From positions 1 to 11,683 of the forward strand of contig JAIPJR010000076.1 of the NCBI GenBank assembly GCA_021734045.1: a stretch of 11,683 nucleotides of DNA, written 5' to 3'. Positions 4,015 through 9,238 of the stretch are shown in pieces. Under the pieces are notes generated by a model. That model did no database searches and was not told the DNA's origin. It saw only the letters and a program-made list of their open reading frames with translations. The number at the start of each line of letters is the position of its first letter. Position 1 is the first letter of the stretch. The translations under genes and the position numbers were made by a program. This stretch comes from Fidelibacterota bacterium. GTDB lineage: Bacteria; Fidelibacterota; UBA8477.

Positions 4015-4635
4015 ATGACTTTCAGCGAAAAACTACAGCTTGTGAAACAATTGTATCAATCATTCCAGAAAACCGTCTGGGGCCAACTGGTAAACTATCC
4101 TCAGCCAGATTTGTACTATCACTTGCTATTGAGTGCTATTTCGCCCATGGAAGAAGATATGCTGCGTCACCAGCTCACCCACACCAGCCATCAGCGAGAT
4201 TTGCGGCGTCTGACAGATTATGCCCGGGAAATCCTGCTGAACTGGCTCATGGAAGATTTGATTATTGAGCAGGTGTTATTTCAATATTTTCGGAGGATTA
4301 AACGCATTGGCAGCGATAGAAACCGGGAATTTTTAACCGGCCCAAAAGTCGCGGCGGACCCGGATATTCTGGCTGATGGCAGGCGGTATGATATGAAATT
4401 CGACTGGACCGGCTATTGGACAGCGAAAGGTGTGGTGGATTTGCGGGACGGCGAATATCCGCTTCTGATTCGTCAGGAGGCCGGTTTGATATTGATAACA
4501 CCAGCGGCGCGTAAACTGGCTATTCTATATAATTTGGAAGATTTAAAAGTGACACGTGGCCGCCGACACCATAAGTGGAATAAACCCTATTACGCGTTAA
4601 AAATTCCCCGAAAAATGTCTTGGCTGGCGTGGTGA
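4015..4635 (+). CDS. Uncharacterised protein with possible PD-(D/E)XK nuclease core
   Basis: I do not recognise this 206-residue protein as a named family. Residues 1-100 look all-helical (long amphipathic stretches around 1-20, 60-75 and 76-97). Residues 105-175 look alpha/beta. There P116-D117, eight residues, then D126-M127-K128 reproduces the PD-(D/E)XK order. E105 lies just upstream, where such folds often carry a helix acid, and strand-like segments follow (GVVDLRD, GLILITP, LAILYNL). The tail is basic and aromatic (RGRRHHKWNKPYY, ending WLAW). No signal peptide or membrane segment is visible. It is transcribed alone, divergent from the cysQ-thyX pair and converging on plsC with a 21-base gap. 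The nuclease idea is inference from one motif. The gene call rests on an intact long frame and compact spacing with neighbours; the ribosome site is poor. Confidence 0.8.
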   Translation: MTFSEKLQLVKQLYQSFQKTVWGQLVNYPQPDLYYHLLLSAISPMEEDMLRHQLTHTSHQRDLRRLTDYAREILLNWLMEDLIIEQVLFQYFRRIKRIGSDRNREFLTGPKVAADPDILADGRRYDMKFDWTGYWTAKGVVDLRDGEYPLLIRQEAGLILITPAARKLAILYNLEDLKVTRGRRHHKWNKPYYALKIPRKMSWLAW

Positions 4636-4656: not shown

Positions 4657-5502
4657 TTATTTCTTTTTGAATGGGTAGTGATAGAGTGCTGCCACCTGAT
4701 CTCGGAATTGGGCGGCAATTTTTTGCCGATTTTCAATGGTATCCGGATTTAAGTCAATAGATGTGGGATTTCCCACGCGAATGGTAACACCTATACTGGG
4801 CAGTCGCAGCAGGGTGAGGAAGTGCGCCAGGAAGGGATCATCTTTATACCACATTACCAGGTCGCGGGCTATCTCATCAGTGGGAATACCGCCTATGTGC
4901 GTGTAGGTAATGCCCACCGGCAGGACTGGCACGCCTGCTGTTGCAGCAGCGGCAAAGAGGGCGGACCGAAAGCGCAGCAAATCCTCCCCGCCGGTAGTGG
5001 TGCCTTCCGGGTAGAAAATGATGTTGGTGCCAAATCCCAGTACGGTTCGCATGACCTGTATATATTTCCCTGATTTTCCTCCCGTGTCACGATCCACGAA
5101 AATCGTTCCTGCAAAATAGCCTGCCCAACCAATAAGCGGCCATTGCTTTACATCCTGCTTAGCCACAAAAAGTACCGGAATTTGACTGGCCACGACGGGG
5201 ATGTCCAGATAACTGGTGTGGTTACCAATAACGACGAAGGACTTCCCCCGGGGAATATTATCCCCATTCTCAACTTTGATTTTCGCGTTCAAAGCGGTCA
5301 TGAGAACCCGTGTCCCCAGAAAGACCCAGTAGGACATGAACCTTAGATAGAATTTAACGGAAAAGAGTCGCACCATCAAAAGAACCATCGCACCCAGCAG
5401 AAAGTAAACCAGTGAGAAAATGAATAGTGCTATCCGTCCGGCCAGGACCCAGTTGTTCACCGGGCGAATGCGCTTATCAGGCCATAAGTTGGGTCTCGGC
5501 AT
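4657..5502 (-). CDS. plsC: 1-acyl-sn-glycerol-3-phosphate acyltransferase
   Basis: This enzyme transfers an acyl chain to lysophosphatidic acid to give phosphatidic acid, the precursor of membrane phospholipids, at the inner face of the cytoplasmic membrane. The 281-residue protein has a hydrophobic N-terminal anchor at about 19-46 and a second hydrophobic stretch at about 55-70. The acyltransferase motifs follow in order: NHTSYLD with H95 and D100 (HX4D catalytic pair), FVDRD at 135-139, YPEGTTT at 164-170 (substrate-phosphate binding) and VPVLPVGI at 191-198. The length fits the family. No ribosome site precedes ATG 5502, so a weakly initiated or differently placed start is possible, but the frame has no good alternative upstream. 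Other acyl-acceptor specificities within the family (for example lyso-ornithine lipid) cannot be excluded. Confidence 0.93.
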   Translation of the reverse strand: MPRPNLWPDKRIRPVNNWVLAGRIALFIFSLVYFLLGAMVLLMVRLFSVKFYLRFMSYWVFLGTRVLMTALNAKIKVENGDNIPRGKSFVVIGNHTSYLDIPVVASQIPVLFVAKQDVKQWPLIGWAGYFAGTIFVDRDTGGKSGKYIQVMRTVLGFGTNIIFYPEGTTTGGEDLLRFRSALFAAAATAGVPVLPVGITYTHIGGIPTDEIARDLVMWYKDDPFLAHFLTLLRLPSIGVTIRVGNPTSIDLNPDTIENRQKIAAQFRDQVAALYHYPFKKK

Positions 5503-5518
5503 AATGACGGGGAAATTA

Positions 5519-5584
5519 AGCGCCGGGTGTTATGAACCAATTGAATTCTCCCCCAAATCTGGTTCTGTTCCGATTGCCGGCGCT
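5519..5584. repeat. Nested inverted repeats in the plsC / GH1-like divergent gap
   Basis: AGCGCCGG (5519-5526) is perfectly inverted as CCGGCGCT (5577-5584). Inside it GAACCA (5534-5539) is inverted as TGGTTC (5560-5565). The pairs are concentric and lie in the only space available for the two divergent promoters. They could be operator half-sites or a folded leader. No terminator-like T tract follows. Confidence 0.35.
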
Positions 5585-5622
5585 GAAATTCTGATTGTTC
5601 CATATCCATTTTGTCGATTCAG

Positions 5623-7002
5623 ATGTATATTCACAATACCATGCTCCTTTACCTGATTATTCTGCTGCTGATCACCGTCCTGCTCTATGTGGTGGCGCGC
5701 CACATCAGTTCACGGGAAACTCACTGGGATTGGGGACGGATTAATCTTGAGAATCTGGCCTTCCCGCACGATTTCGAGTGGGGCGTAACCAGCTGCATTT
5801 TTCCTGATGAACCGGATCACCCGACCAATTTATCGACTTGGCAGGAATCGCTGCGGGGTGAGGAAAAGGACCATCACCAGAGCGGTGTGATGAGTTGGCA
5901 ACATCAGTCTGAACTGGTGGCAGGATTACAACGGTTACAGGTGAACACTTACCGATTTGGCCTGGCGTGGTCCGACATTCAACCCAAACCGAATGAATTC
6001 GATAAAGCCGTGCTGCAGCGCTACAGGAATTTTTGCGAAATGCTGCGTAGCGCCGGAATCCAACCAGTGGTTACCCTGCATCACTTAGCCGCTCCACTAT
6101 GGTTTGAAGCGCTGGGAGGCTTTGAGCGCAGGGAGAACATCCCGGTTTTTGTGGAATTTGCTGAACGGGTATTTGAAAAACTCAGCCCCTTTGTTTCTCG
6201 CTGGATTACATTCCATGAACCGGAAGTGACTGCATTGCAGGGTTGGTATTGGGGGAATTTCCCACCCGGGAAAAAAGATTTACGCCTCGCCACCCGAGTC
6301 TTGGCCAATCTGCTGGATGCTCACACTGCAGTCTGGCATCGGCTGAAAACTGCCGCTCACAAAGTCCCTGATTTGCAGATCGGGCTCACCAAGCAGATGA
6401 ATGCATTCGATCCGGCCCGGCGTTGGCATCCGCTGGATTGGATATTCACCGATACCCTGAATAAACTCTACCGGGACGAGGTGCTCCATTATCTTACCGA
6501 GGGTGTTTTTGATTTCCAAATTTACGGATTTTTTCGCACCCAGCGGGTCAATCCGAAAGCTAAGGGCGCTTTTGATTTTCTGGGGTTGGATTATTTCACC
6601 CACGAGCATGTACGCACTGTATTGGTTTGGCGGCGTCCCTTCCGACTTCGTCCACCGCAACTGGAGCCGGTGGATGATGTGAATGCTGCCATCTATCCTG
6701 AAGGTTTGTACATGGCGATTCAGCGGCTATCCCACCTGAAAAAGCCTCTTTACATCACTGCCAATGGAATTGCTGATCGGGAAGATGAGCAGCGGAGCCA
6801 ATTTATCCGGCGCCATATATACACTGTCCGCCGGGCATTGGCGGAAAATTACCCGGTGAAGGGGTATTCGTATTACAGCCTGGTGGATTCCCACACCTGC
6901 CGGGTGGGCGAACCGGCAGCGTATGGACTTTTTAAGGCTGAGGAAAATAAATTAATCGCCCGCGCTTCCGCCCAGACCTACACATCCATCATTGAATTGT
7001 AA
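5623..7002 (+). CDS. Membrane-anchored glycoside hydrolase family 1 homologue lacking the catalytic nucleophile
   Basis: Numbered from ATG 5623 (459 residues), residues 7-25 form one hydrophobic membrane segment, and the rest is a full-length GH1-type barrel. Recognisable parts are FEWGVTSC (51-58), TYRFGLAWSDIQP (109-121), TLHHLAAPLW (151-160), WITFHEP (194-200), FLGLDYF (319-325) and YITANG (377-382). The acid/base glutamate is kept (E199). The nucleophile of the usual ITENG motif is Ala380, codon GCC. Other usual active-site residues also differ: His198 for the Asn of TxNEP, Asp323 for the Asn of GLNY, and Thr425-Cys426 for the Glu-Trp of the WSLxDNxEW sugar-binding loop. The frame is intact and ordinary in composition, so this is not a decayed gene. 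A role in binding sugar, or a changed reaction, is inference. TTG 5611 and ATG 5641 are alternative starts; none has a clear ribosome site. Its 3' end converges on otsAB. Confidence 0.9.
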   Translation: MYIHNTMLLYLIILLLITVLLYVVARHISSRETHWDWGRINLENLAFPHDFEWGVTSCIFPDEPDHPTNLSTWQESLRGEEKDHHQSGVMSWQHQSELVAGLQRLQVNTYRFGLAWSDIQPKPNEFDKAVLQRYRNFCEMLRSAGIQPVVTLHHLAAPLWFEALGGFERRENIPVFVEFAERVFEKLSPFVSRWITFHEPEVTALQGWYWGNFPPGKKDLRLATRVLANLLDAHTAVWHRLKTAAHKVPDLQIGLTKQMNAFDPARRWHPLDWIFTDTLNKLYRDEVLHYLTEGVFDFQIYGFFRTQRVNPKAKGAFDFLGLDYFTHEHVRTVLVWRRPFRLRPPQLEPVDDVNAAIYPEGLYMAIQRLSHLKKPLYITANGIADREDEQRSQFIRRHIYTVRRALAENYPVKGYSYYSLVDSHTCRVGEPAAYGLFKAEENKLIARASAQTYTSIIEL

Positions 7003-7033: not shown

Positions 7034-9238
7034 TCATTCATTTGTCATCCTGCCACTCAGTGAATCCAGCAGACTCAGCACCCGATTCACATCCGGCACC
7101 CAATATTTAGCATGGGAATCGGTGTCCCCGACCCGGATTGACCAGCCATGGTCCGGAAGCACCCGGAAAACATCCTCATCGGTCCAATCATCGCCGATGG
7201 AAAGAATGAAGTCCCAGTCCCGTTGGTTCAGCCATTGTGCCACGGCACGACCCTTATCCACATTGGCATTTTTCACTTCAATGACACGATGTCCCTGCAG
7301 CACATTCAGTGACAAATGAGCCGTGAGTTGGACCAAATCCTCCATGAGTTCCAGCGTCCGCCGGCTGGCAAATTCTGAGTCCACTTTGCGGCAATGCCAG
7401 ACCAGTGAATAGTCCTTCTCCTCCAGAATAGCACCGGGTGTACGGTCAATGTAATGCTCCATGAGTGGACGAACCGAAGTTTTCCAGTCCGAGCGCAGCG
7501 GCTCAATCAAGCGCCACGATTCCCCCTGTGGCTTCAGCCAGACGCCATGCTCGGCAATGAAGTTCAGATTAAAATCGCCCAACCATTCATCCAGTGTCCG
7601 CCGGTCGCGACCGCTGACAATCGCCACAGTATTTTTAGGATCGTCGGTGAGTTTCCCCAGTATCTTCTGCAGCGCTTTTCCCGGTTTGGCGGCTTCCGGT
7701 TTGTCATGAAATCCTGTGAGTGTGCCGTCATAATCCAGCAGAATCAGACGGGTTTTGGCTTGATGATAAGCTTTCAGCAATTGCGTCCGGATTTTGGGTG
7801 TGAGCGCTCGTCTGACTGAACGGGGGCTGATGGGTTCCACCTTATCGAGGCGCTCCAGAAAATCCGCCGCCCACCGCCGGGCGTCATACCGTTTCAGGCG
7901 CTCCTGCATGACGGCATTTTCCCGCAAAATGGTCTTACGGGGTAATTCCAGTGCCGACTTGATAGATTCGGCCATTCCCTGGATATCGTTAGGATTTACC
8001 ACCAGCGCTTCGCCCAATTCCCGTTCCGCGCCAGCCCGTTCACTCAAGATGAGCACGGCCGGGTGACCTTCGTTGGCGGCGAGAAACTCCTTTGCTACCA
8101 GGTTCATACCATCCCGAATCGGCGTTACCATGCCAATATCCGCTGCCCGGTAGAGGGCAATCAGCCGGTGAAACGGAATCGATTTATACAAATACCAGAT
8201 GGGCACCCAGCCCAGCGTCCCGAACCGGCCGTTAATCTCCCCCACGCGTTCATCTACCTGGCGTTTTAACTGCTGGTAGGACTCCACCTTTGTGCGTGAG
8301 GGTACGGCTACGATGATAAACATCACCTTTTCCCGGTATTTGGGATATCGCTTCAGAAAGAGCTCATACGCCTCCAGCCGTTCCAGAATGCCTTTGGTGT
8401 AGTCCAACCGGTCAACAGAGAGGATAATTTTCTCTCCGGAAAGTTGGGCTTTGATTTTTTTAATCTCACGCTGCACCGGTTTCTCAGCAGGTGTGGTAGC
8501 GAATTTTTGGTAGTCAATGCCCATGGGGAATGAATCGGCTTTCACGTCACGGTTTTTGTACCGAATCGTGCCCAGGTAGTGTTCAATCCCGGTGAGTCGC
8601 CTGACACTGTGGAGAAAGTGGGTTACATAGTCATTGGTGTGGAGGCCAACCAGGTCGGCACCCAACACACCATCGATGATGGCATCCCGCCACGGCAGCT
8701 CCCTGTAAATCTCAGAAGCCGGCCAGGGAATGTGGAGAAAAAAGCCAATCCGTTGGTCCGGACGCTTCTCCCGCAACATACGTGGTAGCAACATAAAATG
8801 ATAATCATGCACCCAGATGGTGTCTTCCGGGCTGCTGATCCGCAGGATTTCATCACAAAATTGTTGATTCACCCGCACATATGCTTCCCACTGTCGGGAG
8901 TCGTATTTCACATGCTGGGTGAAGTAAACAAAAAGTGGCCAAAGCGTGTTATTGCAAAATCCGTTATAAAAGAGGTCCAAATCTTTCTGGGAAATAAAAA
9001 CGGAATGAAACCTGTTCCCGGCTAATTTTTCACGGATAGCCCGCTGGTTTTTCCCAGCCTTCTCACGGCTGATGCCAGGCCACCCCACCCAGAGGCTGTT
9101 TTGTTCACCATAAATACTGTCCAGTCCGGTGGCCAGCCCGCCGGCACTCTGGGTGAAATCAATACTTTTTCCCCGTGTCACCACGCTCACCGGAAGGCGA
9201 TTGGAAACCAGAATGATTTTTTTCTCAGTTGAATTCAT
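7034..9238 (-). CDS. otsAB: Bifunctional trehalose-6-phosphate synthase/phosphatase (OtsA-OtsB fusion)
   Basis: One 734-residue protein carries both steps of trehalose synthesis: nucleotide-sugar glucose plus glucose-6-phosphate to trehalose-6-phosphate, then dephosphorylation to trehalose, in the cytoplasm. Residues 5-465 are a GT20 glycosyltransferase. Key sites are SNRLP (12-16), GG at 33-34, WVHDYHFMLLP (142-152), VDRLDYTKG (275-283, with R277 and K282 for the donor phosphates) and RDGMNLVAKE (375-384). After a short linker, residues 495-730 are a HAD phosphatase with DYDGTL (502-507, nucleophile D502 and acid D504), SGR (542-544), K662 and GDDWTDED (682-689). Both active sites look intact. 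AGGAGA 8 bases before ATG 9238 is the best ribosome site in the window. corA ends 37 bases upstream on the same strand, so the two may share a transcript. Trehalose serves as osmoprotectant or reserve. Confidence 0.97.
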   Translation of the reverse strand: MNSTEKKIILVSNRLPVSVVTRGKSIDFTQSAGGLATGLDSIYGEQNSLWVGWPGISREKAGKNQRAIREKLAGNRFHSVFISQKDLDLFYNGFCNNTLWPLFVYFTQHVKYDSRQWEAYVRVNQQFCDEILRISSPEDTIWVHDYHFMLLPRMLREKRPDQRIGFFLHIPWPASEIYRELPWRDAIIDGVLGADLVGLHTNDYVTHFLHSVRRLTGIEHYLGTIRYKNRDVKADSFPMGIDYQKFATTPAEKPVQREIKKIKAQLSGEKIILSVDRLDYTKGILERLEAYELFLKRYPKYREKVMFIIVAVPSRTKVESYQQLKRQVDERVGEINGRFGTLGWVPIWYLYKSIPFHRLIALYRAADIGMVTPIRDGMNLVAKEFLAANEGHPAVLILSERAGAERELGEALVVNPNDIQGMAESIKSALELPRKTILRENAVMQERLKRYDARRWAADFLERLDKVEPISPRSVRRALTPKIRTQLLKAYHQAKTRLILLDYDGTLTGFHDKPEAAKPGKALQKILGKLTDDPKNTVAIVSGRDRRTLDEWLGDFNLNFIAEHGVWLKPQGESWRLIEPLRSDWKTSVRPLMEHYIDRTPGAILEEKDYSLVWHCRKVDSEFASRRTLELMEDLVQLTAHLSLNVLQGHRVIEVKNANVDKGRAVAQWLNQRDWDFILSIGDDWTDEDVFRVLPDHGWSIRVGDTDSHAKYWVPDVNRVLSLLDSLSGRMTNE

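Follow-up and report, generated by a model that had tools for sequence, protein, structure and literature searches.

Genomic context and domain organization of the GH1-like gene

The window, that is the whole 11,683-nucleotide stretch of DNA that was analysed, is contig C43 of a metagenome-assembled genome (MAG) of Candidatus Marinimicrobiota (G000; 2.5 Mb, 92% complete). On the forward strand, positions 5641–7002 hold the gene of a putative GH1-like pseudoenzyme, which encodes 453 amino acids from a conserved ATG and 463 when read from a TTG at position 5611. The ATG at 5641 is the likelier start, because a methionine is found there in all three species of the genus. Residue numbers given below are those of protein P0001, counted from the TTG at 5611. 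The initial annotation had begun its numbering at an ATG at 5623; its E199 and A380 correctly designated the residues called here Glu203 and Ala384, although its start is less likely than the ATG at 5641.

The protein consists of an N-terminal hydrophobic helix followed by a single GH1 domain. The helix, a likely membrane anchor, is encoded at positions 5644–5709 (+), has a 19-mer hydropathy of 2.99 and covers residues 2–23 of the predicted model. Lysines and arginines on its two sides carry no topology signal when averaged over the family (2.1 versus 2.1); in the window protein and its two genus orthologues, the sequences place positive charges after the helix, which hints that the barrel may lie on the cytoplasmic side. 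The GH1 (β/α)8 barrel extends over positions 5758–6996 (+), as indicated by the Pfam profile and by Foldseek and VIA matches. The match to Glyco_hydro_1 (PF00232) is full length (E = 6.2e-53, 180.3 bits, profile positions 4–449 of 453). No NCBIfam equivalog profile scored above cut-off with the window protein.

Upstream, a gene for an LPLAT/PlsC-type acyltransferase is transcribed divergently (4657–5502, reverse strand). The genus has this acyltransferase as an additional copy, and its gene lies beside the GH1-like gene in all three genomes. This pairing does not in itself establish a functional link, since relatives of the acyltransferase also occur in genomes without a membrane-anchored GH1. 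The shared divergent intergenic region (5503–5640) is partly conserved and contains the conserved word TGAACCAATTGAATTC at 5533–5548. A regulon defined by this word was rejected, the word being present only once in the genome. Downstream lies a gene for a trehalose-6-phosphate synthase/phosphatase (TPS-TPP, 7034–9238). A link to trehalose was likewise rejected, as this gene was not found in one of the genus members (G243, 89% complete), which retains the GH1-like gene. The absence of TPS-TPP from G243 and the occurrence of the acyltransferase without GH1 elsewhere mean that the neighbouring genes say little about function. The window also encodes a 206-residue protein at 4015–4635 (+), present in three genus members with 52–75% identity and having no Pfam match.

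Loss of the nucleophile and of the sugar-binding residues

The nucleophile motif, ITENG in active GH1 enzymes, reads ITANG in the window protein, Ala384 (codon GCC, 6760–6762, forward strand) replacing the catalytic glutamate. The acid/base residue Glu203 is intact (codon 6217–6219, within HEP), and the asparagine that precedes it in active enzymes has become His202 (CAT GAA, 6214–6219 (+), in TF-H-E-PE). On barrel strand 6 (6589–6597, +), Asp327 (GAT, 6589–6591, in GL-D-YF) stands for asparagine and Phe329 for tyrosine. Further along, Tyr422 takes the place of a tryptophan and the sugar loop DNFEW has degenerated to DSHTC (6874–6900, +), where Thr-Cys is encoded by ACC TGC at 6895–6900. Finally, Pro65 (5803–5805, +) replaces the sugar-binding glutamine of QVEG. 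The initial annotation had reported ITANG, the two asparagine replacements and the change of Glu-Trp to Thr-Cys, and all these codons read as described; its list was incomplete in that the changes to Pro65, Phe329 and Tyr422 had been missed.

At the corresponding sites, the aligned PDB relative 1vff has ITENG and NEP. With respect to Thermotoga BglA, Asp327 corresponds to N293 and Tyr422 to W398, while Phe329 occupies the position of the tyrosine facing the nucleophile, Y295. In the Sulfolobus β-glycosidase, eight side chains hold the sugar in the -1 subsite, namely Q18, H150, W151, N205, W425, E432, W433 and the nucleophile (PMC6522968). In the window protein, these eight columns read P, H, L, H, Y, T, C and A, so that seven of the eight are replaced and only the histidine is kept. 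Compared with a retaining GH1 enzyme, the window protein therefore lacks both the nucleophile and the sugar-contact set and possesses the acid/base glutamate.

Predicted fold and pocket

The AlphaFold model of the window protein is of high confidence (pLDDT 91.6, pTM 0.92). The pLDDT value drops below 50 only at residues 84–90 and 429–433, the latter corresponding to the former sugar loop. Its best Foldseek match is 1vff (E = 1e-31), which also ranks first among solved structures when sequences are compared (E = 3.1e-49). Structural comparison gave a Z score of 48.4 with an rmsd of 2.2 over 398 aligned residues, and structures from Paenibacillus, Thermotoga and others matched at Z scores of 47–49, all best matches being GH1 proteins. 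Retention of the acid/base glutamate and of the GH1 fold, as initially annotated, is thus borne out by the intact Glu203 codon, the full-length PF00232 match and the confident model.

Ten chosen positions, Pro65, Arg115, His158, His202, Glu203, Asp327, Phe329, Ala384, Asn385 and Tyr422, are all invariant among the three orthologues, against 64% of all columns. In contrast, rim positions 159, 429 and 430 differ within the trio. With an invariant floor and a variable rim, these comparisons, though only suggestive, indicate that the pocket probably remains in use. Asp327 is located on the strand adjoining that of the nucleophile and, judging from strand alternation, its side chain should point inward.

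Fixation in the genus and purifying selection

The in-depth homologue search covered one phylum and yielded three orthologues, including the window protein. The two others, from genomes G244 (locus L003) and G243 (locus L005), are 78% and 69% identical to it, respectively. A scan of public genome contigs returned a genus-mate as the sole match. ITANG, TFHEP, Asp327, Phe329, Tyr422 and Pro65 are shared by the three genus members that have been sequenced, with GCC and GCG as alanine codons. The replacement of the nucleophile is thus no isolated mutation in an otherwise ITENG group, and the result that the initial annotation named as refuting, ITENG in every close homologue, was not obtained.

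Two of these genomes, G000 and G243, each contain a second, catalytically complete GH1. In G000, this paralogue (G000:C42:343-1839, L002/L033) is 39% identical to the window protein and has all catalytic and sugar-binding residues. It shares the architecture and the N-terminal helix of the window protein and represents its presumed parent family. It differs, besides its intact active site, in that its gene is part of one operon with those for GH13, an MFS transporter and a GH36-like α-galactosidase; in relatives, genes for a nucleotidyltransferase and a galactokinase-like kinase come after. In G244 (82% complete), the ITANG protein is the only GH1 seen.

Comparison of G000 with G244 gave dN = 0.141 and dS = 1.39, hence a dN/dS of about 0.10 that denotes purifying selection, with synonymous sites largely saturated. 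Between G000 and G243, for which dS is saturated, amino acid identity is 68.6% for the ITANG protein, 68.0% for the active paralogue and, among the neighbouring genes, 69.5% for GenX. A tree of 58 proteins was calculated with IQ-TREE under a mixture model. The ITANG trio forms one clade (support 100/100), whose stem measures 1.89 changes per site and whose tips measure only 0.11–0.20. Such an accelerated stem followed by ordinary constraint is the pattern of neofunctionalization rather than of decay. A constrained topology placing the ITANG clade as sister of the genus's own active paralogue was not rejected (p = 0.23).

The distribution of constraint along the chain has also changed. When G000 and G243 are compared, segment 413–452, which contains the former tryptophan and the E-W loop, is identical at 21 of 40 positions, as compared to 37 of 40 in the active paralogue (p = 1e-4). 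Conversely, segment 273–352 (6427–6666, +) has gained constraint relative to the active paralogue, with 60 of 80 versus 42 of 80 identical positions (p = 0.005), and may form a new constrained face. Both segments were picked after inspection of the data, so that these p-values are indicative.

A second clade without the nucleophile

Across the phylum, 98 GH1 sequences were collected, 94 of which could be read at the nucleophile position. The glutamate is kept in 89. Besides the ITANG trio, the exceptions are L072 (genome G208) and L074 (G207), two membrane-anchored GH1 proteins from another family of the phylum, in which glycine occupies the nucleophile site (ITGN). These proteins also have TIDEP, threonine for the tyrosine and glycine for the tryptophan, and they retain the acid/base glutamate together with the sugar-site glutamine, histidine, glutamate and tryptophan. 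In the tree, they group with active GH1 proteins of the family to which they belong, and forcing all five proteins into a joint clade was rejected (p = 4e-6), and with it a single origin. The nucleophile has therefore been lost independently in the two clades, to alanine in one and to glycine in the other.

The two ITGN proteins are also under strong constraint (dN/dS of about 0.07). Whereas the window protein has an active paralogue, they are the sole GH1 of their genomes and occupy the ancestral locus, beside an S9 peptidase, MurQ and AnmK (context loci L111 and L112). The model of the ITGN clade has a pLDDT of 92.1 with no stretch below 50, and its best match is again 1vff. Because of its retained sugar residues, we regard this clade as a better candidate than the window protein for a protein that naturally binds sugar or acts in the manner of a glycosynthase, and for enzymologists it may hold the greater interest.

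Comparison with known GH1 proteins

Several characterized systems resemble the window protein in part. In the KL2 domain of β-Klotho, Ala889 occupies the nucleophile position and the retained acid/base residue Glu693 contacts serine residues of FGF21 (PMC10628560). KL2 and the window protein have in common the GH1 fold, the replacement of the nucleophile by alanine, the preserved acid/base glutamate and membrane anchoring, which makes the comparison with Klotho-type proteins proposed initially an apt one. However, Klotho is an animal protein anchored at its C-terminus and built of two GH1 domains in tandem, whereas the bacterial protein has one domain and an N-terminal anchor. By analogy, the window protein may work as KL2 does; it is not a member of the Klotho family, and the two are not linked by direct descent.

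The closest structure, 1vff, is that of BGPh, a membrane-associated β-glycosidase of Pyrococcus horikoshii. BGPh attaches to the membrane through a hydrophobic mound and has no N-terminal helix, unlike the window protein. BGPh also differs by keeping both catalytic glutamates, and it prefers long-alkyl aglycones, with long alkyl glucosides as favoured substrates (PMC4687101). Since the nearest structurally known active relative favours long alkyl glucosides, a lipid-related ligand is conceivable for the window protein.

In engineered GH1 glycosynthases, the nucleophile is replaced by alanine, glycine or serine. The window protein resembles these variants in the position and nature of the substitution, with a small residue at the nucleophile and a kept acid/base, but the donor-sugar site is intact in glycosynthases and lost here. 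The glycosynthase mechanism is treated in PMC6151457.

Probable non-hydrolytic role of the window protein

Assignment as a pseudoenzyme builds on several observations: residues have been lost, these losses are fixed in the genus, the predicted fold is intact, the sequence is constrained and an active-type paralogue exists. We consider that the window gene probably encodes a membrane-anchored, neofunctionalized GH1 pseudoenzyme, non-hydrolytic and kept as a binding or scaffold protein. Fixation, strong purifying selection and the long accelerated branch agree with the initial proposal of selection for a non-hydrolytic role.

Against this assignment, an invariant pocket floor in a new state would equally be expected of a rewired catalyst. 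In such an enzyme, Glu203 would still serve as acid/base, while the missing role would fall to Asp327 or to a nucleophile from outside, for instance phosphate; the reaction would then be an altered one, with a lipid-linked or non-pyranoside substrate. In all three species, Asp327, His202, Glu203 and Tyr422 are invariant in their new state, the acid/base glutamate is kept in both independent nucleophile-less clades, and alanine and glycine also serve as nucleophile substitutions in engineered glycosynthases. But residues that hold the -1 sugar are lost, including the glutamine, the tryptophan and, in two of the three species, the glutamate, and we know of no natural GH1 with rewired, nucleophile-less chemistry. 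Overall, a rewired enzyme seems unlikely, if worth keeping in mind. For transglycosylation with an activated donor, suggested in the initial annotation, no positive support emerged. Considering both clades, the glycine one with its largely kept sugar grip and the alanine one with its new Asp327, there is only a small chance that at least one catalyses a natural reaction without the usual nucleophile, for example inverting phosphorolysis or a synthetic reaction starting from an α-glycosyl phosphate.

The protein could alternatively be a sensor or lectin holding a glycoside uncut in the classical -1 site, consistent with the kept fold, acid/base glutamate and His158. This idea, also raised initially, is weakened by the replacement of seven of the eight sugar contacts and by the sugar loop being the least confident, poorly ordered part of the model. 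It suits L072/L074, with their glutamine, histidine, glutamate and tryptophan, better than the window protein, for which we find it rather improbable. A decaying duplicate on its way to becoming a pseudogene would explain the long accelerated stem, but is very unlikely in view of the intact frame in three species, the dN/dS of about 0.10, an identity equal to that of the active paralogue and the high-confidence fold. As for a sequencing or assembly artefact, conceivable with a MAG, it has practically no likelihood, because the same substitution occurs with differing codons in three separate genomes and GCC is two bases away from both GAA and GAG, as the initial annotation had pointed out in arguing against a read error.

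We therefore favour the binding or scaffold pseudoenzyme. On this reading, the membrane-anchored GH1 glycosidase of the phylum was duplicated, and one copy would have lost its nucleophile and its grip on the -1 sugar in a burst of change; strong purifying selection would then have maintained it for binding or scaffolding, without the ability to hydrolyse β-glycosides by the GH1 mechanism. What remains of the pocket (His158, His202, Glu203, Asp327, Tyr422 and Arg115), together with segment 273–352, might recognize an unusual ligand, or else a partner, at the membrane. One candidate is a peptide segment, by analogy with β-Klotho KL2; as the gene is paired with a divergent acyltransferase gene, a lipid headgroup is another.

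The well-known example of a GH1 enzyme that became a receptor is Klotho, and the window protein would illustrate the same change in a bacterial genus, beside an active paralogue. Literature searches for bacterial GH1 pseudoenzymes, within the collection of papers covered, retrieved none, which does not in itself prove their absence. If our assignment is correct, two independent losses within one phylum would mean that pseudoenzymes have arisen from the GH1 fold repeatedly, and the ITGN clade, in which most of the sugar grip is preserved, provides a direct test case for a natural glycosynthase-like or phosphorylase-like GH1. Family annotation alone would label all these proteins β-glucosidases.

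Other GH1 variants in the phylum

The survey revealed further variants. In L070 and L077 (genomes G216 and G217), the nucleophile is kept and the active-site tryptophan is replaced by arginine, a possible intermediate or altered specificity. In L007, L011, L018, L031 and other loci of family f19, a membrane-anchored GH1 is extended at its C-terminus by an AhpC-TSA/thioredoxin-like domain that has a CxxC motif, for a total of about 620 residues; the pairing is unusual, and the additional domain was demonstrated for L007. Finally, at L052:4095-9406 and at L035, L049, L050 and L051, an operon combines an MFS transporter, a membrane-anchored GH1, a nucleotidyltransferase and a galactokinase-like kinase, with GH13 and GH36-like genes in some genomes; it might serve galactoside or galactolipid breakdown.
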